From NCBI GenBank assembly GCA_944381495.1, contig CALWLJ010000013.1:1-64000 (forward strand): DNA of 64,000 nucleotides. The letters are read 5' to 3'. This document shows positions 45,941 through 56,319 of the stretch, one piece after another (position 1 is the first letter of the stretch; every line of letters starts with the position of its first letter). The notes below the pieces were generated by a model. That model was not told where the DNA came from and searched no databases. It saw only the letters and a list, made by a program, of their open reading frames with translations. The position numbers and the translations under genes were made by a program. Source of the stretch: an uncultured Mediterraneibacter sp. (GTDB taxonomy: Bacteria > Bacillota > Clostridia > Lachnospirales > Lachnospiraceae).

Positions 45941-45990
45941 ACAGAAAAAGAGGCGGAGAGCAGCCAGTGCCCTCATGCCTCTTTTTCTGT
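45941..45990. terminator. Bidirectional terminator, 14-bp perfect stem
   Basis: ACAGAAAAAGAGGC (45941-45954) pairs with GCCTCTTTTTCTGT (45977-45990); CCATTTTTTG follows. It ends the 5'-nucleotidase gene and the convergent TetR gene, whose stop lies within it. Confidence 0.9.
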
Positions 45991-46587
45991 CCATTTTTTG
46001 AATGTGCGGAACATCCCGTAATGCATATTTTCTGTCATGATCTTTTCTACGTCCTTCATGCGGACCGTGTCATAGTATTTGAACCACCATCGTACAAGCG
46101 ACATCATGTCAGAAGCAAAAAGGTGTGCATACAGATCCGCGTATTTTTCGTTCTCGTCTGTTCTGCGGGCAAACGGCTTCAGTGTGGTGAGGATATTGTC
46201 GTGAACGATCCGGTTCATTTCGTTAAAAATCTGACGGTCTATAGAAGCGTTCCAGAGGATCTGATATTCTTCTCTTTTGCCTGATATATATGTCAGAGCG
46301 GCCTCAAAGTTTTTTATATAGCAGATATTATGGATATTGGACGGTTCGGCATTGATGAATTCTACATTTATATTCTTACGAAAATCATCCAGTGTCCGGT
46401 CGATATATTTATCCAGAAGATCATATTTGTCCAGATAATATTTATAGAAGGTGGAGCGGTTGATCAGCGCGTTTTTGCAGAGCATGTCCACCGTGATCTT
46501 CTGAAAAGGGCAGGACCGAAGGCTGTCGAGCAGAGACCGGTCGATCTGACTGAGTGTCTTGACCACTCTTAAATCTGTTTTTCCCAT
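45973..46587 (-). CDS. TetR-family transcriptional regulator
   Basis: 204 residues. The HTH is visible at about 20-65 (LLDSLRSCPFQKITVDMLCKNALINRSTFYKYYLDKYDLLDKYI); the remaining helical part is the ligand/dimer domain (TetR_C-like, with an FNEMNRIVHDNILTTL helix). The ATG (plus 46585-46587) is about 9 bases from AAAGGAG; an upstream frame to 46647 lacks a ribosome site. It is divergent from the redox operon starting at 46837, and two TTGG...CCAA palindromes lie in the 250-base gap. It is therefore the likely repressor of that operon, with the operon's substrate as inducer. Confidence 0.88.
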   Translation of the reverse strand: MGKTDLRVVKTLSQIDRSLLDSLRSCPFQKITVDMLCKNALINRSTFYKYYLDKYDLLDKYIDRTLDDFRKNINVEFINAEPSNIHNICYIKNFEAALTYISGKREEYQILWNASIDRQIFNEMNRIVHDNILTTLKPFARRTDENEKYADLYAHLFASDMMSLVRWWFKYYDTVRMKDVEKIMTENMHYGMFRTFKKWTEKEA

Positions 46588-46677
46588 GTAGGAGCTCCTT
46601 TCAAAGCGAGTCTTGAATGACGTCTGATTCCGGCGGTATTCATGCATCTGGCATAAAACAACAGAAATCAGAGATCT

Positions 46678-46691
46678 GTTGGATATCCAAC
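46678..46691. promoter_or_regulatory. Palindromic operator candidate A
   Basis: Perfect 14-bp palindrome GTTGGATATCCAAC in the gap between the TetR gene and the redox operon. Its TTGG/CCAA half-sites match those of candidate B. Confidence 0.6.
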
Positions 46692-46750
46692 GAAAAAAAA
46701 TAACTTGATGATAGGCAGCAGATTACATGCTTGTTAAAATAATATCAAAG

Positions 46751-46768
46751 AGAATTGGCACCAATTCT
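46751..46768. promoter_or_regulatory. Palindromic operator candidate B
   Basis: AGAATTGG-CA-CCAATTCT, an 18-bp perfect inverted repeat about 70 bases before the first redox gene, sharing TTGG/CCAA half-sites with candidate A but with a different spacer. Confidence 0.65.
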
Positions 46769-46836: not shown

Positions 46837-47781
46837 ATGAGTTACAAAGTTATGGGCATTACAGCCGGAAGAAAAAATGGAAACAGTGAGATCCTGCTGA
46901 AGGAAGCTCTCATGGAATGCGAGAAGCAGGGCGCAGATGTTACAATGATCAACCTGCGGGATTATCATATTATTGACTGTACCGGATGCACCAGCTGTAC
47001 AAAAGCCATGTCCGAGGGAAAGAACGCAGGATGTGTGCTGGATGAAAAGGATGACAAAAAGAAGATTATGGATGTTATGCTGAACCAGGACGCAGTGATC
47101 TTTTCTGTTCCTACATATGATCTTATGCCGGCTTCCGTTTATCTGACCTTTGCTCACAGAAGCCTGAGCTATGAGACCTCTTTCCTGGAGTCTATCGGAG
47201 CAATTGAGCACAGAGACCGTGTGGCAGGGCTGATTTCCGTGGGCGGATCCACAAGGGCATGGCAGTCCATGGCTCTGGAAGGACTTCAGGCTACCATGTT
47301 TACAACAGATATGAAAGTAGTTGACATGATTCTTGCTACAAGAGTTCCGGGAAATGCCCAGTGCCTTCTGAATGACGAACTGATGGAGCGGGCAAGACAG
47401 ATGGGCGAGCATATCATGGAAGCAGTGCGGACTCCCGCGGAAGAGAGAAAATGGCTTGGGGAAGAAGATATGGGCTGGTGTCCGAACTGTCATTCAAATG
47501 CGCTGGTACTGGGAGAAAAGCAGTGGGATGGCGTGTACTATCCGGTTGAGTGTCAGGTATGCGGCGCAGGCGGCAATCTTGTTCAGACAGAAGACGGAAA
47601 ATGGAAATTTGTGATCCAGGAAGACGGACTTCTGAAGGATCGTACGACTGTAGCAGGCCGCGCCAAACATCTGGAGGAGATCGCTCATACGCAGGGGGGA
47701 TTCTTCGGAGATCCGGAGAAGCTGGCTCTTGTCAGGGAGAGAAAGATGAAATACGTGAACAAGCAGTTTAAGACAGTTTAA
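46837..47781 (+). CDS. Flavodoxin-fold FMN reductase with C-terminal zinc ribbon
   Basis: 314 residues. The N-terminal 190 residues are an NADPH-dependent FMN-reductase/flavodoxin domain: phosphate loop GITAGRKNGNSEIL, and a Cys-Thr-Gly-Cys-x2-Cys (CTGCTSC) segment near residue 50 typical of iron-sulfur flavoproteins. A C-terminal extension has a four-Cys ribbon (CPNCHS then CQVCGAG) near 218-247, followed by a basic tail. It can supply or take electrons from low-potential partners. It is first in the operon controlled by the divergent TetR gene; the ribosome site AGAAGGAGAAAA lies about 10 bases upstream. Confidence 0.87.
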   Translation: MSYKVMGITAGRKNGNSEILLKEALMECEKQGADVTMINLRDYHIIDCTGCTSCTKAMSEGKNAGCVLDEKDDKKKIMDVMLNQDAVIFSVPTYDLMPASVYLTFAHRSLSYETSFLESIGAIEHRDRVAGLISVGGSTRAWQSMALEGLQATMFTTDMKVVDMILATRVPGNAQCLLNDELMERARQMGEHIMEAVRTPAEERKWLGEEDMGWCPNCHSNALVLGEKQWDGVYYPVECQVCGAGGNLVQTEDGKWKFVIQEDGLLKDRTTVAGRAKHLEEIAHTQGGFFGDPEKLALVRERKMKYVNKQFKTV

Positions 47782-47866
47782 AGGCAAAATATTCGGACAC
47801 AGTTCCGGTCTGTGTCTATATAGGACAAACGGTATACAAAAGTATCATACAGAAAGGAAGAGGAGA

Positions 47867-49987
47867 ATGGAAGTTACGATTCAGATTGACGGGAGAGAGA
47901 TCCGGACAGAGCAGGGAGCTAATGTTCTTGAGGCTGCTCTGACAAACGGAATCTATATCCCTCATTTATGCCACCACCCGGACCTGCCGGATATCGGGTC
48001 ATGCCGTCTGTGCATCGTAGAGGTGGAAGGACGGGAAGGGGTCTGTCCGTCCTGTAAGCTGGAGGCGGAAGACGGGATGAAGATCCGTACAGACAGTGAG
48101 CAGATCAGTCATCTGCGCAGACTGTCCATGGAGCTGATCCTTGCAGCGCATCCGGAAGATTGTTCCACCTGTCCGAAATACGGACAGTGCGAGATGCAGA
48201 CTCTGATCCAGTATATGGGTGTATCCGCTACAAGAATGAATACCAGGGTGAAAGGGTTCCCGATGAATGAAAGCAATCCGCTTCTCATTCATGATATGAA
48301 CCGCTGTGTACTCTGCGGGCGCTGTGTGCGTGCCTGCAATGATCTGCGCGGCGTGGGAGTTCTTCAGTACAACAAAAAGGATATGGAGACCTACGTGGGG
48401 ACACTCCATGACAGGCTGCTCAAGGATTCGGACTGCCGGTTCTGCGGAGCCTGCGCTGAGGTATGTCCTACCGGGACGATCAGAGACATGGTGAACTATA
48501 CGCCTGTGGAAAAGAAGGATACCCTGATTCCCTGTCAGGCTGCCTGTCCGGCGCATGCAGATGTGCCGCGGTACGTGCGTTATGTCAAAGAAGGAAAAAT
48601 GGAAGAGGCGACGGCTGTTATCCATGAGAAGATCCCATTTCCGGAATGCCTGGGCCATGTGTGCGCCCATGCCTGTGAAGGAAAATGCCGTCGGGGCGAT
48701 GTGAATGAGGCTGTTTCCATCCGGAACATCAAACGCTATGCTGCCGAACACGCCAACAATTCCCTGTGGAAAGAAAACAGTAAACATCTTCCGTCTACCG
48801 GGAAGAAAGTCTGTGTCGTCGGCGGAGGGCCTGCAGGTATGACTGCGGCCTATTATCTGGCAAAACAGGGGCATGAGACCGTGCTGAAGGAGGCTTTGCC
48901 AAAACTGGGCGGACAGCTTCAGTACGGGATTCCGTCCTATCGGCTTCCGAGAGAAGTTGTGGATAAAGAGGCGGGCTACCTGCAGGATGCCGGCGTGAAA
49001 GTCGAGACCGGATGCAGGGTAGACGATCCGAAAGCGCTTCTGGATGAGTGTGATGCGGTCCTGATGGCCATCGGAACCCACAGAGGCGTCCGTCTTCCCA
49101 TGGAAGGAAATGAGCTTCCCGGAGTACTTTTGAATGCAGATTTCCTGAGAAACGCGTCCATGGGCATGGAGACAGGAATGGGAAAACGGGTGATCATCCT
49201 TGGCGGTGGAAATGTTGCTTTTGACTGTGCCAGATCAGCAGTACGCCTTGGCGCGCAGGAGGTTCACCTGGCATGTCTGGAAGCCCGCGAAAATATGCTG
49301 GCTGATGATGAAGAAATCCAGCAGGCTCAGGAGGAAGGAATCCAGATCCATCCGGCACATACCTTTGAGAAGATCTGCGGAACAGACCATGTGACCGGCG
49401 TGGAATTTTGTAATGTCAAGAGCTTTACATTTGATGAGAACAGAAGAGCTATTATTGAGAAAGAAGAGGACTCCGCGCATGTGATCGAAGGCGATACTGT
49501 GATCTTTGCAGTAGGACAGAGAGCAGATATTACAGAAGAAGCCGGCCTGGAACTGGGAAGAGGAAATTCCATCGCAGTCAGAGAAGGCTCTCTTGCTACA
49601 AGCGTGGACGGAATCTTTGCCTGCGGAGACGCAGTATATGGGACAAAAACCGTGATCCAGGGCGTGGCCTCCGGAAGAGAGGCAGCCTCCGAAATGGACC
49701 GCTATCTTGGCGGAGACGGGGATATTTCGGAGATCCTTGTACCGGCGGCAAAGAAGGAACCGTGGATTGGACGGATCGAAGGGTTCGGATATCTGGAGAG
49801 AGCAGAAGAACAGTTTGTGCCGGCAGATGAGAGAAAGGATAATTTTGATCCTATCAGCAGTGGCATCTGTGATGAGAAGATCTGCGGCGAGGCAGGAAGG
49901 TGCCTGCAGTGTGACCTGAGATTTGAGATCACCGGGCACAGGCTGTGGAGTGATTATACCGATCAGGAAAAGGAGGCGGCAAGATGA
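47867..49987 (+). CDS. NuoG-like iron-sulfur/GltD-like NAD(P)H oxidoreductase fusion
   Basis: 706 residues. Domains in order: plant-type 2Fe-2S (Cys35, 46, 49, 63); His-Cys3 4Fe-4S site (His95, Cys99, 102, 108) as in NuoG and HydA; two 4Fe-4S clusters (CVLCGRCVRAC near 145 and CRFCGACAEVC near 195); a GltD-type N-terminal iron-sulfur helical domain (CQAACPAHADVPRYV, CLGHVCAHACEGKC); then two Rossmann folds of the glutamate-synthase small-subunit family (VVGGGPAGMTAAYYL for FAD near 315; VIILGGGNVAFDCARSA for NAD(P)H near 445). The last segment repeats FxxCGD (IFACGDAVYG). It should pass electrons between NAD(P)H and its iron-sulfur chain, for the flavoprotein encoded next; the genes overlap by four bases. 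Confidence 0.92.
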   Translation: MEVTIQIDGREIRTEQGANVLEAALTNGIYIPHLCHHPDLPDIGSCRLCIVEVEGREGVCPSCKLEAEDGMKIRTDSEQISHLRRLSMELILAAHPEDCSTCPKYGQCEMQTLIQYMGVSATRMNTRVKGFPMNESNPLLIHDMNRCVLCGRCVRACNDLRGVGVLQYNKKDMETYVGTLHDRLLKDSDCRFCGACAEVCPTGTIRDMVNYTPVEKKDTLIPCQAACPAHADVPRYVRYVKEGKMEEATAVIHEKIPFPECLGHVCAHACEGKCRRGDVNEAVSIRNIKRYAAEHANNSLWKENSKHLPSTGKKVCVVGGGPAGMTAAYYLAKQGHETVLKEALPKLGGQLQYGIPSYRLPREVVDKEAGYLQDAGVKVETGCRVDDPKALLDECDAVLMAIGTHRGVRLPMEGNELPGVLLNADFLRNASMGMETGMGKRVIILGGGNVAFDCARSAVRLGAQEVHLACLEARENMLADDEEIQQAQEEGIQIHPAHTFEKICGTDHVTGVEFCNVKSFTFDENRRAIIEKEEDSAHVIEGDTVIFAVGQRADITEEAGLELGRGNSIAVREGSLATSVDGIFACGDAVYGTKTVIQGVASGREAASEMDRYLGGDGDISEILVPAAKKEPWIGRIEGFGYLERAEEQFVPADERKDNFDPISSGICDEKICGEAGRCLQCDLRFEITGHRLWSDYTDQEKEAAR

Positions 49988-52728
49988 GTCTTTTGAGCAA
50001 CAATATCGAAGCGCTGACATTGGCGGGAAAGATGGGGCGCACGGCACTGGAAGAAAAACTGGGCGCCGTTCCGAAGACGGAAGGCAGGATCCTGGGAGCT
50101 CTCTATAATGCGGATACAGAAGGCAGGATGAATATGCTTCTTCATACCAATCCTGCGGGGATCATTGCCGGTATGGCAGCGGCAGTGAAGCTAAGTGGAG
50201 CGCAGGGCGGCGTTCTGGTCACAGACTGTGAGATCAATGAGCAGGAATTTATGGCGGCAGCAGGTACAGCCGGTATCGATCTGATAATCGAGCGGGCCGG
50301 TATGGTAAACAAAACTGCTCACAAGAAAGACCGGATGATGACATTTGAGGAACTGGCGGCTCTGGCAGACCGGATGACGGGTGCTCAGCCGGGAATCTTT
50401 CTTGCCCTGGACGACGAGGTGCCCGTAGAGGCGGATCCTGATACGCTGGTGACAGATTTTCTGACGGGAATGGAGTACAAAGGAATCCTGACAGGACATT
50501 GTTTTTACAGTGCGGATGAGATCCGGGGAATGAAAGTTGGAGAGCTGAAGACCTGGGGCGGTTCTGTGCGCACAGTGAAGAATACAGACTGTGCGGTAGA
50601 CCTGGCGGCAAAGGATATCCTGGCTCTGAGAAAGAAGAGCTGCGGCAAGTGTACCTTCTGCCGGGAAGGCCTCTATCAGATCGCTCAGATCCTCGATGGG
50701 GTCACATCCGGCAGAGCCTCCGTGGATGATCTGCAGCTGGCGGATGAGATCGGCAGAGCCATGGAAGTATCCTGCAACTGTACACTGGGTGACCGCGCAG
50801 GCATCCCTGCGGTTTCCCTTCTTACCGCTTTTGGTCCGGAGACAGAAGCACATATCCGGAGAAAAGAATGTCCGGCGGAAGTGTGTCTTGCACTGACCCG
50901 ATTCTATATCGATCCGTCCCTTTGCACCGGAAACGGAGCGTGTGTGGACATCTGTCCGGAACACTGCATCGAAGGAAAAGACGGGTATGTGTCACAGATC
51001 GATGAGTTCGACTGTACCAGATGCGGGAAGTGCCTGGATGTTTGTCCTAACAATGCAGTAAAGAAAGTATCCGGAAGAGTTCCCAAGCTTCCGAATAAGA
51101 GAGCGCGGCTCAAGGGCGCGGCAGGAAACCCGGCAGAAGAAAGGCCGGTACGGGAGCGCAGCACAAAGAGAAAACGTGTATTCGCTTCCATCGGGGCTCA
51201 GGCTGCAGTTCCGGAGAAAAAAGAAGAAAAAGCGGTTCGTGAAGAGAAGAAAGCGGAGGTTAAGATCATGAAAACATTAGAGACAGATGTGGTCATTGTT
51301 GCCGGAGGACCGGCAGGACTGGCGGCTGCCATCACGGCGGGCGAGAACGGACTGAAGTCCATTATCCTGGAAAAATCAAGCACTACCGGCGGAGCTGCCA
51401 ACATGGGGATGGGACCTCTCGGGATCGATACAAAGATCCAGAAGGCCAACTTTAATAACATTAGTGTTCAGGAAGCACTGGATATGCATATGCAGTATAC
51501 CCATTACCGTGTAGATGAGGATCTGGTCCAGACCTATTTCAACAAGAGTGCGGATACCATCGAATGGCTTCAGGAGATGGGCGTGGAATTTGCAGGAGCG
51601 TTCCGCTATTTCAAAGAATCAGAAGCCACCTGGCATATCGTGAAGCCGGAAAACGGTGTCATCGGACCCCGTGCCGCAGGTCCCATGATCCGGAAGATGA
51701 CGGAGCGTGCGAAAGAATTGGGCACAGAAATCCTTCTTGAGACACCGGCTGTTTCTCTGATCGTGGAGAACGGAAAAGTGTGCGGGGCAAAAGCCGTAGA
51801 CAAAGAAGGGAACGGCATTGAAGTAAAAGGAAAGGCTGTTATTGTGGCCACCGGAGGATTCGGTAATAATAAGGAAATGCTGAAAGAAGAATTTGGACTG
51901 AACCTGGGCGAAGACTTCTTCCCGTTCCAGATCCCCGGGATCACCGGAGACGGCTTACGTATGATGTGGGAAGTCGGAGCCGAGAAGTTCGGAGCCAACA
52001 TCGAAGCAATCTATCAGATCCCGGACAACCTGAACTGGTTCCTGCTGGATGCGGTGCTGCGTCAGCCCAACCTGCTGATCAATCAGCTTGGAGACCGTTT
52101 TATGAATGAAGGCGATATGGGAAATACAACCTATGCCGGAAATGCGCTTCATCTGCAGCCGGGCAACTACGGATACTGCATTATGGATGAAGGTATCCTG
52201 AAGGAATACAAGAAGAACGGTCCGGATATCGTAGACATTGTTCATCCGGCGGAGGCATTCATTGCCTTTGAAGGACAGGCAGCCCAGGCGGTTGAGCAGG
52301 GATACCCGGGATATGTCGAGGCGGAGACCGTGGAAGAACTGGCTGAGAAGCTGGGGATCGATGCGGAGAAACTGCAGGATACCATTGATGAATACAATGA
52401 GATGTGCGCAAACGGTGTAGATACGAAATTCCATAAACCTCAGAAGTATCTGCATCCTATTACAGGAAAAGGAAAATACCTTGTCGGAAAGTATTATCTG
52501 GCGGCATATGGAACCGTGGGAGGTGTCCGTATTAACAAATACTGCGAGGTGCTGGATAAAAACCAGATGCCGATCGAAGGTCTTTACAGCGCTGGATCAG
52601 ATGCCAATACAATCTACGGAGACAGCTACAACTTCACACTTCCGGGAAATACCATGGGATTCGCGATCAACTCGGGACGTATGGCCGGCGAGAGTGTGGC
52701 AGAATACATCAGAGACTGTGAAGTATAA
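49984..52728 (+). CDS. NuoF-remnant/ferredoxin/FAD_binding_2 reductase fusion
   Basis: 914 residues. Residues 1-200 resemble NuoF but lack the FMN/NADH motif (GRGGAGFPTG); the iron-sulfur part of NuoF is kept (SCGKCTFCREG near 220, NCTLGD near 262). A two-cluster ferredoxin follows (CTGNGACVDIC, CTRCGKCLDVC, about 315-355), then a Lys/Glu-rich linker (about 390-425). From residue 429 a fumarate-reductase-like flavoprotein begins: VVIVAGGPAGLAAAITAGENG, EKSSTTGGAANMG, IVATGGFGNNKEM and a C-terminal GLYSAGSDANTIYG/LPGNTMGFAINSG. An internal ATG at 51268 with GGAGG 8 bases before could produce the reductase alone. The likely function is reduction of an unsaturated or keto substrate with electrons from the NuoG/GltD-like partner. 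Confidence 0.88.
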   Translation: MSLLSNNIEALTLAGKMGRTALEEKLGAVPKTEGRILGALYNADTEGRMNMLLHTNPAGIIAGMAAAVKLSGAQGGVLVTDCEINEQEFMAAAGTAGIDLIIERAGMVNKTAHKKDRMMTFEELAALADRMTGAQPGIFLALDDEVPVEADPDTLVTDFLTGMEYKGILTGHCFYSADEIRGMKVGELKTWGGSVRTVKNTDCAVDLAAKDILALRKKSCGKCTFCREGLYQIAQILDGVTSGRASVDDLQLADEIGRAMEVSCNCTLGDRAGIPAVSLLTAFGPETEAHIRRKECPAEVCLALTRFYIDPSLCTGNGACVDICPEHCIEGKDGYVSQIDEFDCTRCGKCLDVCPNNAVKKVSGRVPKLPNKRARLKGAAGNPAEERPVRERSTKRKRVFASIGAQAAVPEKKEEKAVREEKKAEVKIMKTLETDVVIVAGGPAGLAAAITAGENGLKSIILEKSSTTGGAANMGMGPLGIDTKIQKANFNNISVQEALDMHMQYTHYRVDEDLVQTYFNKSADTIEWLQEMGVEFAGAFRYFKESEATWHIVKPENGVIGPRAAGPMIRKMTERAKELGTEILLETPAVSLIVENGKVCGAKAVDKEGNGIEVKGKAVIVATGGFGNNKEMLKEEFGLNLGEDFFPFQIPGITGDGLRMMWEVGAEKFGANIEAIYQIPDNLNWFLLDAVLRQPNLLINQLGDRFMNEGDMGNTTYAGNALHLQPGNYGYCIMDEGILKEYKKNGPDIVDIVHPAEAFIAFEGQAAQAVEQGYPGYVEAETVEELAEKLGIDAEKLQDTIDEYNEMCANGVDTKFHKPQKYLHPITGKGKYLVGKYYLAAYGTVGGVRINKYCEVLDKNQMPIEGLYSAGSDANTIYGDSYNFTLPGNTMGFAINSGRMAGESVAEYIRDCEV
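51255..51270 (+). promoter_or_regulatory. Internal ribosome site and start codon for the flavoprotein half
   Basis: GGAGG (51255-51259), 8 bases, then ATG (51268-51270) in frame with the 914-residue protein. It precisely precedes the FAD-binding strand, so it looks like the former start of a separate reductase gene and may still work. Confidence 0.65.
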
Positions 52729-52745
52729 CAGGCAGGTGTGATAAG

Positions 52746-53258
52746 ATGTCAAAAAAATGGGATAATCTGACACTGGCATTCTGTATTGCCCTGCTCCCGC
52801 CTATCTGGGCGGTGCTGGCGCCCCATATCCATGTATCCACTGGCGCGGTTGCGCTTATCTGCACCGGTGTGTACGTGGCCAACGGAAACAGATTTTCCGA
52901 CGGAGTGAAGATTTCTGTTGGATTTCTCCTGGGAGACTTCTGGGCGTGGGCTGCGCTGCATATTATGGATCTCCTGCAGTGGAATCCGGATCTGGAACTG
53001 TTTGTTACGCTTTTTGTCATGGGTGGTCTCGTAGTACTGATTTCCGGTCTGGTGCCGTCGCTGGTCTACTGCCCGGCATGGCTCTGCGGCTGGGCCATCG
53101 GTCTTACGATTATGTCGCCTCTTGGAATGGAAGGGATGAAAGGATACCCATGGCAGATCGCTGTTGCCATGCTGATGGGAGTATGGTATGTGGGAGCACT
53201 TCTGGACAAAGTACAGAGAATGCTGTTAAACTGGATGGAGAAAAAGGATGGTAGATGA
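52746..53258 (+). CDS. DUF1097-family membrane protein
   Basis: 170 residues with four or five membrane helices (LAFCIALLPPIWAVLAP, GAVALICTGVYVANG, ISVGFLLGDFWAWAAL, LFVTLFVMGGLVVLISG, and PAWLCGWAIGLTIM). The pattern fits the DUF1097/YccA-like group sometimes proposed as small transporters. Its position between the reductase fusion and the hydrolase, sharing ATGA (53255-53258) with the latter, suggests a role in moving the pathway's substrate or product across the membrane. Function otherwise unknown. Confidence 0.78.
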   Translation: MSKKWDNLTLAFCIALLPPIWAVLAPHIHVSTGAVALICTGVYVANGNRFSDGVKISVGFLLGDFWAWAALHIMDLLQWNPDLELFVTLFVMGGLVVLISGLVPSLVYCPAWLCGWAIGLTIMSPLGMEGMKGYPWQIAVAMLMGVWYVGALLDKVQRMLLNWMEKKDGR

Positions 53259-54052
53259 AAATGAAAAAAGTAGGAGTATGCAGGGAAGAAAAACAGCTTC
53301 CATATTATAAATATTTTGAACAGGATCTGGCTCCGGTTCCGGAGGAAAAGCTTGCGGTTCTTGCACAGGGGGCGCAAAAGGAGAAAAAGGCTGTTCCCTT
53401 TGAGCAGAAGGATCTGTTCCTTGCGGGAAAAGATGAGGATTACTGTCAGATTGGATACGGAGTCATGGATGATGGAACAGGATTTGTCTGCAATACCACA
53501 TATATGCCGGGGGTTACCGGTGAGATGCTGGACTGGTGGTTCCCCTGGCACAGCGTAGGGTCCGATCTGCGATACAAGATCTGGGATCCGGAGGATCACT
53601 ATTTTGCCCGTGCCGACCGTGTGGATTATGTGTGCGATCCGGCTGTGCCCATGAATCAGAAGACATGGGGCGTGAACCACTATATTATGGAAGATGTGGG
53701 TCCTGGTCCGGAATTTCTGAAGCTCTGCTTTAAGAACCCGGCGGATTTCGGATATGATCCTTCGGTGATCGGAAGCGAAAAATGTCAGTCCATGGTATGT
53801 GCCATCGGTGAAAGTTCCTGTGCGGCTGCCATGACACACAAGTGGTATCCGTACAAGGATGGAGTGATGTTCTGCTCAAGATTCTGGATCGGGTTCGGAG
53901 TTGTGGACGGCCGGATCGTCAAGACACTTCCGGAGGGAGTGAAGATTCCTGAGATGGTTCCCCAGGGACTCTTTGCGCACAATATAAAAGAGTTTACTAA
54001 TCTGGCGGCAATCCTGCCGGAAGTATACGAAGAAAACAAAGGGGATCTGTAA
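53255..54052 (+). CDS. PhlG/phloretin-hydrolase-family C-C hydrolase
   Basis: 265 residues. The Bet v1-like family of 2,4-diacetylphloroglucinol hydrolase (PhlG) and phloretin hydrolase. The zinc ligands of PhlG, as I recall them His129, Glu160, His270 and Glu274, have counterparts His115, Glu146, His242 and Glu246 here: the first pair keeps the 31-residue spacing and the second the His-x3-Glu (HNIKE) motif. A WWFPWH segment at 94-99 and NHYIMED at 141-147 are also family-like. These enzymes cleave the bond between a phenolic ring and an acyl group. It is the last gene of the redox operon, so it should act on the reduced product of the flavoenzymes. The natural substrate is not defined by the sequence. 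Confidence 0.85.
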   Translation: MKMKKVGVCREEKQLPYYKYFEQDLAPVPEEKLAVLAQGAQKEKKAVPFEQKDLFLAGKDEDYCQIGYGVMDDGTGFVCNTTYMPGVTGEMLDWWFPWHSVGSDLRYKIWDPEDHYFARADRVDYVCDPAVPMNQKTWGVNHYIMEDVGPGPEFLKLCFKNPADFGYDPSVIGSEKCQSMVCAIGESSCAAAMTHKWYPYKDGVMFCSRFWIGFGVVDGRIVKTLPEGVKIPEMVPQGLFAHNIKEFTNLAAILPEVYEENKGDL

Positions 54053-54181: not shown

Positions 54182-54841
54182 ATGATTAACATATTGATCG
54201 TTGAGGATGAGATTTCCATAGCGAAACTGATGAAGATGAGCCTGAAAAGGGCGGGATATGAGTGCGACTGTGTGTATGACGGCGAAGAGGCGGCGGACAG
54301 GATCGGGACCGGGAAATATGATCTGATCCTGTTGGATGTGATGCTGCCGAAGATCAGCGGGTTTGAACTTATGGAATACATTCGTCCTATGGGAATTCCA
54401 GTCATATTCATAACGGCGAAAAACGCAGTTGCTGACCGGGTGAAAGGACTGCGGATGGGCGCGGAAGATTATATTGTGAAGCCTTTTGAGATCATTGAGC
54501 TGCTGGCGCGGGTGGACGTGGTGCTGAGACGGTACAGGCTCTCCGATGATATCATTGATATATGCGGATTGCACATTGATCCCCAGGCGATGCGTGTACA
54601 GCGGGATGGGAAGGAAATCCCTCTGACAAAGAAGGAATATGATCTGCTCCTTCTTTTCGCGAGAAATCCGGATACAGCTCTGTACCGGGAGACGATCTAT
54701 GAGCGGGTCTGGGGCGGAGAGCTTGAGTACGGAAGCAAAGCCGTGGATCTGCTTGTCCAGAGGCTGCGGAAAAAGGTTGGGTGGAACCAGGTGTTAAAGG
54801 CAGTAAACAAGGTAGGATACAGGCTGGAGGTGAGGCAATGA
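54182..54841 (+). CDS. OmpR/PhoB-family response regulator
   Basis: 219 residues. Receiver: ILIVEDEISIAKLMKM, phospho-acceptor Asp in LILLDVMLPK near residue 52, Thr in FITAKN and Lys in DYIVKPFEIIELL. Winged helix from about 125 (RVQRDGKEIPLTKKEYDLLLLFARNP, YERVWGG, GYRLEVRQ). Its stop overlaps the kinase start (ATGA, 54838-54841). Downstream genes encode an anchored protein and a carboxypeptidase, resembling VanRS-VanY-like cell-wall sensing. The conserved 15-mer at 54093 and 57276 may be its binding site. Confidence 0.93.
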   Translation: MINILIVEDEISIAKLMKMSLKRAGYECDCVYDGEEAADRIGTGKYDLILLDVMLPKISGFELMEYIRPMGIPVIFITAKNAVADRVKGLRMGAEDYIVKPFEIIELLARVDVVLRRYRLSDDIIDICGLHIDPQAMRVQRDGKEIPLTKKEYDLLLLFARNPDTALYRETIYERVWGGELEYGSKAVDLLVQRLRKKVGWNQVLKAVNKVGYRLEVRQ

Positions 54842-56319
54842 GATTCCGGCTGAAGATCACGATCTGCATGCTCTGCCTGGTCAGTATCCTGTTCGGTGCG
54901 GGAAGCAGCGCCCTGATCCTTCTCACTTTTCAGAATAGTCTGGAGCGGGAAAAAAATGCGGCGGAAGATTCTTACAGGATGCTTATGTATATGATGCAGA
55001 TGGCCGGAGGCATGGAGAACCTGTCGGGGACAGAGGAGATTCGCTCGGTTCTCCGCCAGATTGCCGGACAGAGGGATGCATACTGGGACGGAGTTACACT
55101 CTCTTCCGGAGAAGAAGTACTGTACAGCCAGGGCGATACAGCGGAATATCTGGCCGGGCAGGAGGAAAGGGGCAGCGGTGAAGAATGGGTGATTACTTTC
55201 TTTCAGGCAGAAAATGGGAGAAATTACCTGAGAATCTCAGGCGGCCTTCCTGCAGAAGGAGAGACGATGTATCTGGAGGCTGCTCATGATATCACTGCTA
55301 TTTATGAGAACCGGGACCGGCAGCAGAACGCTTATCGGGCTGTCTTTCTTCTGACAATGCTGCTTTGCGCGGTTCTTGCCTACAGCATGTCTTTTGTGCT
55401 GACCCGCCCTCTGGACAGATTGTCACGGGGAACCCGTGAGATTGCCAGGGGGAATCTGGCCTTTCGGTCGGGAATCCGGTCCGGTGATGAGATCGGTCGC
55501 CTTTCTATGGATTTTGACCGCATGGCAAAAAGGCTTGAAAGGAATGTAAGGGAACTGGAGCAGGCAGTTGAGCGCCAGGAAAGGTTTGTAGGCAGTTTTA
55601 CCCATGAACTGAAGACGCCTATGACTTCTGTCATCGGATATGCGGATCTGCTCCGCAGCCGGGAACTGTCGGAGGAAGAGCGGCAGGATGCGGCCAATTA
55701 TATCTTTTCGGAAGGAAAACGGCTGGAGCGGCTGTCGTTGAAGCTCCTTGATATCTATGTGGCCGAGCAGACCAGGCTTCAGCTGTCTCTGCACAGTCCG
55801 GGTCAGATTGTAGAAGACGTGGCGGGGCATCTGCAGGCTGGATATGAGGAGCGGGGGATCCTTTTGAAGGTATCCTGTGAACAGGGGCAGTGTATGCTGG
55901 AACCGGATCTGTTCCGCTCTCTTCTGGTCAATCTGATCGATAATGCAGGCAAGGCTCTTGCAGTGGAAGGGGACCAGGAGAAACAGACTGAAAGAAAGAA
56001 AAAACATATATCGATAACTGTGAAGTTGACAGAGAAAGGATGCGTTCTCATTGTAGAGGACGATGGCCCGGGAATACCGGATGAAGCAAGAGAGCATCTG
56101 ACAGAAGCGTTTTTCCGGGTGGATAAGTCCCGATCCAGGCAACAGGGAGGAGCCGGACTGGGGCTGACTCTGTGCGCAAAGATTGCAGAACTCCACAGAG
56201 GGTCGATCAGTTTTGAAAACCAGGAGAACGGCGGTGCGAAAGTGACAGTGAAGCTGAATGGAGGTCGGCGTGCCGGGCATGACGATATGAAAAAGAGAAA
56301 GTCGGAGGAAGAAAATTGA
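54838..56319 (+). CDS. Sensor histidine kinase
   Basis: 493 residues. Two membrane helices (about 7-30 and 165-185) flank an extracytoplasmic domain of some 130 residues; then HAMP (FVLTRPLDRLSRGTREIARGNLAFRS), HisKA with the phospho-acceptor His in FVGSFTHELKTPMTSVIGYADLL near residue 258, and HATPase_c with NLIDNAGKAL, DDGPGIPDEA and GGAGLGLTLCAKI. The ATG at 54838 is inside the regulator's end (GGAGGTGAGGCA upstream). Pairs with the regulator at 54182. Confidence 0.94.
   Translation: MRFRLKITICMLCLVSILFGAGSSALILLTFQNSLEREKNAAEDSYRMLMYMMQMAGGMENLSGTEEIRSVLRQIAGQRDAYWDGVTLSSGEEVLYSQGDTAEYLAGQEERGSGEEWVITFFQAENGRNYLRISGGLPAEGETMYLEAAHDITAIYENRDRQQNAYRAVFLLTMLLCAVLAYSMSFVLTRPLDRLSRGTREIARGNLAFRSGIRSGDEIGRLSMDFDRMAKRLERNVRELEQAVERQERFVGSFTHELKTPMTSVIGYADLLRSRELSEEERQDAANYIFSEGKRLERLSLKLLDIYVAEQTRLQLSLHSPGQIVEDVAGHLQAGYEERGILLKVSCEQGQCMLEPDLFRSLLVNLIDNAGKALAVEGDQEKQTERKKKHISITVKLTEKGCVLIVEDDGPGIPDEAREHLTEAFFRVDKSRSRQQGGAGLGLTLCAKIAELHRGSISFENQENGGAKVTVKLNGGRRAGHDDMKKRKSEEEN

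Follow-up and report, generated by a model that had tools for sequence, protein, structure and literature searches.

Flavones and flavonols rank among the major polyphenols of the diet, and their breakdown starts with flavone reductase (FLR). Among the closest known systems, the Eubacterium ramulus pathway comprises FLR, chalcone isomerase, Fcr/EnoR and Phy. The FLR of Flavonifractor plautii (PDB 7d38) is described, in the accessible parts of its report, as an FMN enzyme unable to use NAD(P)H, with its electron chain left open (PMC7862272). In the C. butyricum flr-fcr-phy cluster, as far as the available part of PMC11868195 describes it, the FLR-type and Phy-type genes flank one for a predicted Fcr, an enzyme with an alpha/beta barrel domain. 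A protein search for a C. butyricum cluster in plasmids returned 9 records, none of them from Clostridium and none reaching 60% identity. In another phylum, Eggerthella lenta has Cber, a catechin benzyl ether reductase; this flavin enzyme cleaves the catechin C ring, opening it at the benzylic C-O bond (PMC11887054), and is compared with the present system by function.

The window analysed here, a 64,000-nucleotide stretch of DNA from an uncultured Mediterraneibacter sp., holds five close-set genes on the forward strand (46837..54052), next to a divergent regulator gene and all at the coordinates given in an earlier note. Intergenic distances of 85, -4, 17 and -4 bases make a single transcription unit likely. 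Like the C. butyricum cluster, and compared with it by description, the operon places a reductase between FLR-type and Phy-type genes, although the middle enzymes are a NuoG-GltD protein and a NuoF'-FAD2 fusion rather than a predicted Fcr. Our findings strongly support a role for this operon in flavonoid metabolism. With a probability of about 0.6, we read it as an anaerobic flavonoid degradation module in which the FLR-like enzyme, FAD2 and the hydrolase PHY act in series, supplied by a chain fed with NAD(P)H. The FAD2 chain and a window-type FLR (65%) are present in E. ramulus too, but the window joins FLR, chain, FAD2 and PHY in one operon, has NuoF' fused to FAD2 and belongs to a genome without a detected chalcone isomerase or close Fcr.

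The first gene (46837-47781, +; 314 aa; FMN_red 1.5e-10) encodes an FLR-like FMN ene-reductase, by its sequence probably a catalyst of the pathway rather than an iron-sulfur electron carrier. Flavone reductase 7d38 (E 3.8e-30, 30% identity) is its sole relative of solved structure, and given this match we replaced the iron-sulfur flavin reductase named in the earlier note; the structure section of PMC7862272, in its accessible part, makes no mention of an iron-sulfur cluster in 7d38. Over the compared sequence, which runs to residue 281, the 7d38 residues G146, S147, H271 and I275 are kept, the last two being A-ring contacts, while W149 is matched in one of two alignments only, through a gap placed by MAFFT. 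Because eight FMN- or substrate-site residues of 7d38 (M10, S14, N15, I89, E91, K92, D103 and G106) are replaced in the window protein by R, N, S, T, D, L, H and a gap, we call the protein FLR-like rather than a proven FLR.

The second gene (47867-49987, +; 706 aa) fuses NuoG iron-sulfur domains to a GltD-type NAD(P)H-FAD oxidoreductase, as the earlier note had it (Fer2_4, NADH-G_4Fe-4S_3, Fer4_Nqo3, Fer4_20 and Pyr_redox_2), and each of its 20 cluster-type cysteines (C35 to C274) is covered by 24 or 25 alignment rows, of which at least 24 retain it. The third gene (49984-52728, +) encodes a single 914-aa protein combining a NuoF iron-sulfur region, ferredoxin and FAD_binding_2. Its NuoF' part (aa 1-370; 49984-51093, +) consists of a degenerate N terminus, a NuoF 4Fe-4S site and two ferredoxin-type sites (NADH_4Fe-4S 3.9e-19, also Fer4), and the cysteines of the 4Fe-4S site (C220, C223, C226 and C266) are invariant in the 19 rows of the alignment. 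The iron-sulfur and ferredoxin region is common to NuoF/HydB of bifurcating enzymes (E 5.9e-56). Unlike these, NuoF' is fused to a flavoprotein reductase and has no FMN/NADH-binding domain recognisable by profile search against HydB/NuoF: the significant match begins at about residue 175 in the best matches (159 in some), the best match shows merely a 7.3-bit stretch before position 159, and the GxGGxGF motif is absent from the NuoF' part. NuoF', though its iron-sulfur region is kept, was therefore rejected as an NADH entry point, and GltD is the most likely site of NAD(P)H entry. No description of a NuoG-GltD/NuoF'-FAD2 chain was found in the titles, abstracts and passages searched. The chain is not strain-specific. 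E. ramulus and E. oxidoreducens hold it unfused, as a separate gene set apart from the hydrolase gene, with FAD2 homologues of 76% and 72% identity, respectively.

FAD2 is a fumarate-reductase-type domain (51259-52728, +; FAD_binding_2 2.3e-51). Its top NCBIfam model is vinyl phenol reductase, at 322 bits against a cut-off of 600; the likeness to VprA (NF053717) extends over the whole domain though far under the cut-off, and FAD2 differs from VprA in being fused to NuoF' and paired with NuoG-GltD. In alignments with FAD2, the fumarate reductase motifs HHTMGG and NRLGGN lie opposite YGTVGG and NFTLPGN, and TTRDKA lies opposite a stretch containing NTTYAG; we take the Arg and His residues of these motifs to serve substrate binding and catalysis in fumarate reductase and flavocytochrome c. 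Fumarate or urocanate reduction was rejected as the main role of FAD2, which does not retain the residues that bind carboxylate in fumarate reductases of solved structure. A place within phloroglucinol degradation was also rejected, as dihydrophloroglucinol cyclohydrolase (E 1e-50) occurs in just 7 of 20 chosen genomes, a set selected for having PHY, and a FAD2 homologue (at least 45%) in 19.

The fourth gene encodes the predicted small membrane protein, a DUF1097 member (52746-53258, +; 170 aa; PF06496 2.8e-23). Of 80 loci, here and below the best 80 of 99 found, 21 have a homologue of it close to PHY. PHY itself (53255-54052, +; 265 aa) belongs to the PHY/PhlG family, matching the whole DAPG_hydrolase domain (PF18089, 4.5e-72; 242.7 bits, cut-off 22.7) and scoring 78.4 bits, under the cut-off of 600, against a narrower NCBIfam DAPG hydrolase model. 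Equivalents of the PhlG zinc ligands, which we take to be His, Glu, His and Glu, are H115, E146, H242 and E246, identical in all 71 aligned sequences (the window and 70 of the 80 loci) and borne out as proposed from the DNA alone. The window protein is 75% identical to an E. ramulus protein (L045) that identity comparisons mark as probably Phy (PMC8398226), and on this identity PHY is a phloretin hydrolase homologue predicted to cleave phloretin.

Gene content, conservation, family membership and co-occurrence are observed; from them we infer the following reactions and electron route, and the regulation described further below. The FLR-like enzyme would first reduce C2=C3 in a flavone or flavonol, and FAD2 would carry out the next two-electron step to a dihydrochalcone, either by reductive opening of the flavanone C ring or by reduction of the chalcone form of the flavanone, a step performed elsewhere by Fcr or by chalcone isomerase with an enoate reductase. 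PHY would then hydrolyse the dihydrochalcone, giving a phenylpropionic acid together with phloroglucinol or one of its derivatives, products that probably leave the cell given that no dihydrophloroglucinol cyclohydrolase was found in the window genome. NAD(P)H, more likely NADH, would donate its electrons at the GltD FAD, from which they may pass through the GltD and NuoG clusters to the NuoF' cluster, the two ferredoxin-type sites and the FAD of FAD2. FLR, too, may receive its electrons from this chain; the characterised relative of FLR cannot itself take electrons from NAD(P)H. The earlier note's core idea, reduction followed by C-C hydrolysis with a dedicated multi-cluster chain, thus fits the sequence findings, except that its gene 1 appears not to be an electron carrier. 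Its substrate class, a polyphenol or acylated phenol, narrows to flavonoids with a phloroglucinol A ring; acylated phenols in general are less likely because the module is also part of clusters for phloroglucinol degradation and for C-glycoside deglycosylation.

A search of the window genome, which is 91% complete, detected neither a chalcone isomerase (E 1e-5) nor a close Fcr-type enzyme (best 31-35%), which leaves the link from FLR to PHY missing unless FAD2 or a divergent enzyme fills it. E. ramulus and G017 instead pair window-type FLR with a protein of the OYE family, to which Fcr belongs. Fcr combines an OYE barrel with a pyridine-nucleotide domain, and no OYE domain (PF00724, E 0.001) was detected in the 8 proteins of the operon and its flanks. 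A divergent Fcr elsewhere is possible, since the predicted C. butyricum Fcr is only 32% identical to that of E. ramulus, and such absences are weak evidence where several genomes are drafts or MAGs. In E. ramulus, FAD2 is no simple replacement, as an Fcr-type enzyme and chalcone isomerase are also present. The operon offers an alternative candidate to Fcr at the ring-opening step and also candidate electron partners for FLR, probably transcribed together with the genes for an FLR relative and a PHY homologue, and may explain how gut bacteria power steps of flavonoid breakdown. Tentatively, NuoG-GltD and NuoF' could form a shared NAD(P)H-oxidising hub powering two successive flavonoid reductions, by FLR, whose missing donor the hub would be, and by FAD2, with FAD2 as a second, unrelated solution to C-ring opening in many gut Bacillota, where it would stand by itself or within clusters for C-glycosides, phloroglucinol or phloretin hydrolase. 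A bolder and highly speculative form would add flavin-based electron bifurcation at the GltD FAD. If the reading of the operon as a flavonoid module is right, gut-genome screens for FLR, chalcone isomerase, Fcr and Phy alone miss a flavonoid reductase whose FAD2 part occurs in 25 of the 298 family genomes sampled.

Across these 298 genomes, a PHY homologue occurs in 16 and together with FAD2 in 13 (p 1.4e-13); FAD2 lacks a PHY match in 12 genomes and PHY lacks FAD2 in 3 of its 16. At 66% identity or more, FAD2 is found in 11 genomes, 10 of which have PHY, on different contigs in 7 of the 10 (p 3.8e-10 with the 3 linked genomes excluded). Window-type FLR occurs in 16 genomes, 14 of them with FAD2 (p 1.4e-15), and FAD2 is often unlinked to the PHY homologues and window-type FLR with which it co-occurs. 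Among the 80 PHY loci, FAD2 lies within the fetched stretch in 23 and the GltD part in 22, in several gene orders across the Bacillota, so that the grouping is not chance. PHY is nonetheless often without FAD2 nearby (57 of 80 loci, 13 of the 57 being short on both sides and more on one), and Dialister (G005) has PHY with neither FAD2 nor FLR. Four loci (L029, L039, L040 and L047) retain the regulator and PHY with much of the middle missing. This frequent separation would suit detoxification genes that merely lie near one another and share no substrate, but overlapping genes, recurring gene orders and co-occurrence even when unlinked make that explanation highly improbable.

The module also adjoins phloroglucinol degradation genes (including at L152) and, in genomes without a PHY match, C-glycoside deglycosidase genes (L158-L162 and L167); it is found in C. 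aerotolerans (L139) too, and in M. glycyrrhizinilyticus a C-glycoside cluster that includes an FLR-like gene lies on the same contig. These neighbours, with FLR-like and PHY genes, suit flavones well, as do the kept A-ring contacts, and make it unlikely that the chain and FAD2 serve mainly other polyphenols (isoflavones such as genistein, flavan-3-ols, acylphloroglucinols or hydroxycinnamates), with window-type FLR dedicated to such a subclass and not to flavones. What speaks for another subclass is the divergence of several active-site residues from 7d38, the catechin-cleaving flavin enzyme of E. lenta in the available part of PMC11887054, and the organisation of E. ramulus, which has three separate loci, as if for different substrates: one holds classical FLR and chalcone isomerase, another window-type FLR and an OYE-family gene, and the third the FAD2 chain. 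Known FAD_binding_2 reductases act on substrates. It is accordingly doubtful, and rather improbable, that FAD2 and NuoF' chiefly supply electrons to FLR while a divergent Fcr elsewhere opens the ring. In the close relatives L002, L003, L005 and L063 the operon has no FLR but still holds chain, FAD2 and PHY (the FLR gene is missing from the operon of L032 too), and in L134 FLR adjoins PHY with the chain on a separate contig (L135). The supplier role would, however, account for the adjacency of FLR and FAD2 where PHY is absent (L150 and L151) and would answer the electron-chain question left open in the accessible part of PMC7862272.

The regulator (45973-46647, -), divergent from the operon, is of TetR/AcrR type by sub-threshold matches (TetR_C_8 9.8e-5, under the Pfam cut-off; DhaS-type TetR 3.6e-8, under the NCBIfam cut-off). 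A homologue (at least 40%) occurs in 14 of the 80 PHY loci. TetR control, as first proposed, would be local, other clades having other regulators. An operator-like site, TGTTGGATATCCAACG (46677-46692, no strand assigned), scores 11-14 of 14 in 12 of 13 TetR-linked gaps, the window among them, and 10 of 14 in L047, against a consensus, TGTTGnATAAnCAACA, derived from the same sequences; the scores of L002, L005 and L047 were reached by 13, 20 and 39 of 500 shuffles. A perfect palindrome at 46751-46768 was rejected as operator, having no counterpart among 12 relatives in which perfect arms of at least 7 were listed. The putative conserved site and the TetR-type regulator may together control the operon. 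Promoter-like sites were no commoner than chance (12 found against 9.4 +/- 3.2 in shuffles); that of the window (46712-46740, +) has a TG before the second hexamer, and its TGnTAAAAT looks conserved in the alignment of TetR-linked gaps.

An earlier note had described a regulator and five genes here, and this observed set is borne out in coordinates and Pfam domains. A TetR-type regulator (45973-46647, minus strand) diverges from five plus-strand genes at 46837-54052, which are separated by gaps of 85, -4, 17 and -4 bases. Gene 1, the FLR-like gene (FLR, flavone reductase), carries FMN_red; gene 2, NuoG-GltD, carries 2Fe-2S, NuoG 4Fe-4S, dicluster, Fer4_20 and Pyr_redox_2; gene 3, the fusion NuoF'-FAD2, carries the NuoF 4Fe-4S region, ferredoxin and FAD_binding_2; gene 4 (52746-53258) is a DUF1097 membrane protein; and gene 5, PHY, carries DAPG_hydrolase. 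We place the probability that the operon has a flavonoid role at roughly 0.85. The most likely route runs from flavone through FLR, FAD2 and PHY. A flavone would be reduced to the flavanone by FLR, the flavanone or its chalcone would be converted to the dihydrochalcone by FAD2, with electrons reaching it from NAD(P)H via GltD, NuoG, NuoF' and ferredoxin sites, and PHY would split the dihydrochalcone into phloroglucinol and an arylpropionic acid. That FAD2 takes the C-ring-opening or chalcone-reducing step is somewhat favoured. FLR, phloretin hydrolase (Phy), the ring-opening reductase Fcr and the phloroglucinol pathway are already known. No description of the NuoG-GltD/NuoF' chain or of FAD2 in flavonoid breakdown was found in the literature searched, which lay mostly outside subscription journals, and the predicted novelty is a flavonoid pathway using a different, multi-cluster reductase.

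The solved relatives of PHY at a cut-off of E 0.001 are only phloretin hydrolase (5xe5, 5xey) and PhlG (3hwp). H115, E146, H242 and E246, the equivalents of the zinc ligands of PhlG, are invariant in 71 of 71 aligned sequences (the window's and those of 70 of 80 homologous loci, the other ten not being called as open frames). The E. ramulus genome holds two strong family members and one weak; the product of locus L045 (274 aa counted from the first Met) shares 75% identity with the window PHY, the other strong member 42%. Goris et al. (PMC8398226) put Dialister succinatiphilus homologues at ~60% identity to the characterised Phy. The D. succinatiphilus sequence L068 fits this value with L045 (63%, versus 43% with the other strong member), which makes it almost certain that L045 is the characterised Phy or the equivalent of it in this strain. 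Both E. ramulus and E. oxidoreducens have a second homologue (L091/L082, L092/L083), 41–42% identical to the window's. DUF1097 adjoins PHY even where the fetched stretch, in some cases short, contains no chain (L029, L036, L042, L069), and may act as a carrier of substrate or acid product.

A PDB search with gene 1 gave a sole match, 7d38 (E 3.8e-30, 30% identity), the FMN-bound FLR of F. plautii, whose assay mix contained NADH, FMN and a flavin reductase according to Yang et al. (PMC7862272) and which is reported there not to accept electrons from NAD(P)H itself. G146, S147, H271 and I275 of 7d38 are kept in the window protein, W149 is kept per the MAFFT alignment and not per the HMMER alignment, and M10, S14, N15, I89, E91, K92, D103 and G106 differ. 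Flavone reduction by the window protein is plausible, since 11 further FLR-like proteins from a family set at 30% identity or above are reported in that paper to act on apigenin.

Each of the 20 cluster-type cysteines of NuoG-GltD is covered by 24 or 25 rows and conserved in no fewer than 24. Its second nucleotide-binding motif continues to an acidic-ended stretch (of 24 readable rows, 22 show ACLE and 2 AALE), and this closing acidic residue suggests a preference for NADH over NADPH. A 19-row profile of NuoF' matches HydB/NuoF (E 5.9e-56), the best matches starting at about residue 175 and some others at 159; an N-terminal stretch scores 7.3 bits, below significance. Because the GxGGxGF motif, which was looked for, is absent from NuoF', we take it as a NuoF without its former flavin entry site, now a wire. 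The first ferredoxin-type motif lies at residues 314-324 of the 914-residue protein. Its second cysteine is replaced by N, S, T or E in the window protein and a number of relatives, other relatives having C; a 3Fe-4S site or another ligand is possible there. The closest NCBIfam model to FAD2 is vinyl phenol reductase, with a score far under its cut-off. Fumarate reduction was rejected as its main role, as the residues that bind carboxylate in fumarate reductases are not conserved. Between the window and its close relatives L002, L003, L005 and L063, identity is 73–76% for NuoF' (49984-51093) versus 95–98% for FAD2 (51259-52728); the wire evolves fast while the catalyst hardly changes. Fused proteins form one clade of 15 rows (support 96/90) in a tree of 32, with the unfused E. 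ramulus type branching beside it. Since long open frames also occur in some genomes outside the tree (G241, 930; G212, 984; G079, 981 residues), there may have been more than one fusion event.

Among the best 80 of 99 homologous stretches, the fetched sequence around PHY contains FAD2 (at least 45%) in 23, the GltD part in 22, DUF1097 in 21, the FLR-like gene (at least 45%) in 18 and TetR in 14; the 57 where FAD2 is absent include 13 stretches short on both sides and more short on one (for example L004, L020). The window-type order is TetR, FLR, NuoG-GltD, NuoF'-FAD2, DUF1097, PHY, and it recurs minus FLR in L002, L003, L005 and L063. PHY comes first with the chain behind in L006, L074 and L079. 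The order in L007, L008, L010, L011, L023 and L046 is phloroglucinol genes, PHY, FLR-like, FAD2, NuoG-GltD and a separate NuoF'. Here PGR (SDR), DPGC (cyclase family), TfD, TAL, thiolase and CoA-transferase were assigned by gene order and family reading, guided by the degradation pathway as set out in PMC10470551. L029, L039, L040 and L047 keep TetR and PHY with much of the middle missing, through real deletion or an assembly effect; L029, L039 and L047 lack FAD2, and L040 has FAD2 and NuoF' without FLR and NuoG.

The chain may also reduce FLR. The adjacency of FLR and FAD2 even without PHY (L150, L151) keeps that idea alive; however, close relatives retain the chain and PHY with no FLR in the operon, and we regard it as the weaker, rather doubtful reading. 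An even sample of the window's family comprised 298 genomes; its p values (Fisher) are guides only because the genomes are related and a few (G154, G105, G034 and G127) share coordinates with ones chosen earlier. PHY (E ≤1e-40) occurs in 16, FAD2 (E ≤1e-90) in 25 and both in 13 (p 1.4e-13). FAD2 at at least 66% is found in 11 genomes, ten with PHY and G263 without; leaving out the three with linked PHY gives 7 of 8 (p 3.8e-10). The remaining 14 FAD2 genomes, of lower identity, have PHY in 3 (p 0.03). Window-type FLR (E ≤1e-60) occurs in 16, with FAD2 in 14 of them (p 1.4e-15).

Twenty genomes, the window's and 19 picked non-randomly from the 80 loci, several being drafts or MAGs, were also compared. 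FAD2 is present in 19 and window-type FLR (at least 50%) in 16; in E. ramulus, E. oxidoreducens, G007, G016 and G017 the chain genes form a set of their own, apart from PHY. An OYE-family protein (the family of Fcr) follows window-type FLR in E. ramulus (672 residues) and G017 (637, ending at the contig end). In E. ramulus, classical FLR (64% to 7d38) has a homologue of chalcone isomerase next to it. Chalcone isomerase (E 1e-5) occurs in 5 of the 20 and the OYE type at at least 78% in 4; eleven, including the window's, combine FAD2, PHY and window-type FLR without either. Four of those eleven (G003, G007, G011, G014) have a 35–38% OYE match at E 1e-100, and the window genome's best matches are 31–35%. 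As the predicted C. butyricum Fcr is just 32% identical to that of E. ramulus (PMC11868195), the window genome may hold a divergent Fcr. Dihydrophloroglucinol cyclohydrolase (E 1e-50) is found in 7 of the 20 and at that threshold not in the window genome. A variant phloroglucinol set beside the chain in G017 (L132:7000-16000; SDR 33%, TAL 57%, thiolase 40%, TfD 34%) perhaps acts on a related ring.

Of the 25 FAD2 genomes in the family sample, 17 supplied twenty stretches for comparison (G000, G034, G094, G105, G127, G154, G203 and G288 being left out), and FAD2 lies in 19 of the twenty. Of these 19, 15 have a GltD-type gene, 8 an FLR-like gene of either type and 7 a C-glycoside deglycosidase beta-type gene (L153, L158-L162, L167; tblastn, 34–41% to that of L141). 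All seven include the alpha-type gene, most have GFO/IDH/MocA genes, and all come from genomes with no PHY match. Phloroglucinol genes adjoin the chain in L152. C. aerotolerans L139 holds the same kind of C-glycoside locus, with Pfam CGDB confirmed. M. glycyrrhizinilyticus and M. catenae, whose operons are closely related to the window's, have a C-glycoside cluster on the FAD2 contig with an FLR-like gene (34–39%) ~15 kb upstream of FAD2 (Pfam was run on M. glycyrrhizinilyticus genes only). CGDB occurs in 7 of the 20 chosen genomes and was not found in the window's in that search.

A response regulator and histidine kinase lie at 54182-56319, 129 bases after PHY; a link to the operon is unlikely because no match to these two above 150 bits is among those listed near PHY in the 80 loci. 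The pseudo-palindrome TGTTGGATATCCAACG lies between TetR and the operon, at 46677-46692. Its consensus, drawn from the 13 scored gaps themselves (the window and 12 of 14 TetR-bearing loci), scores 11–14 of 14 in 12 and 10 in L047; of 500 shuffles, 13 reach the real score in L002, 20 in L005, 39 in L047 and 0 to 3 in the others. Promoter-like sites show no excess over expectation. The neighbours in other clades are LysR-like or PucR-type, so TetR control is, on gene context, a local feature.
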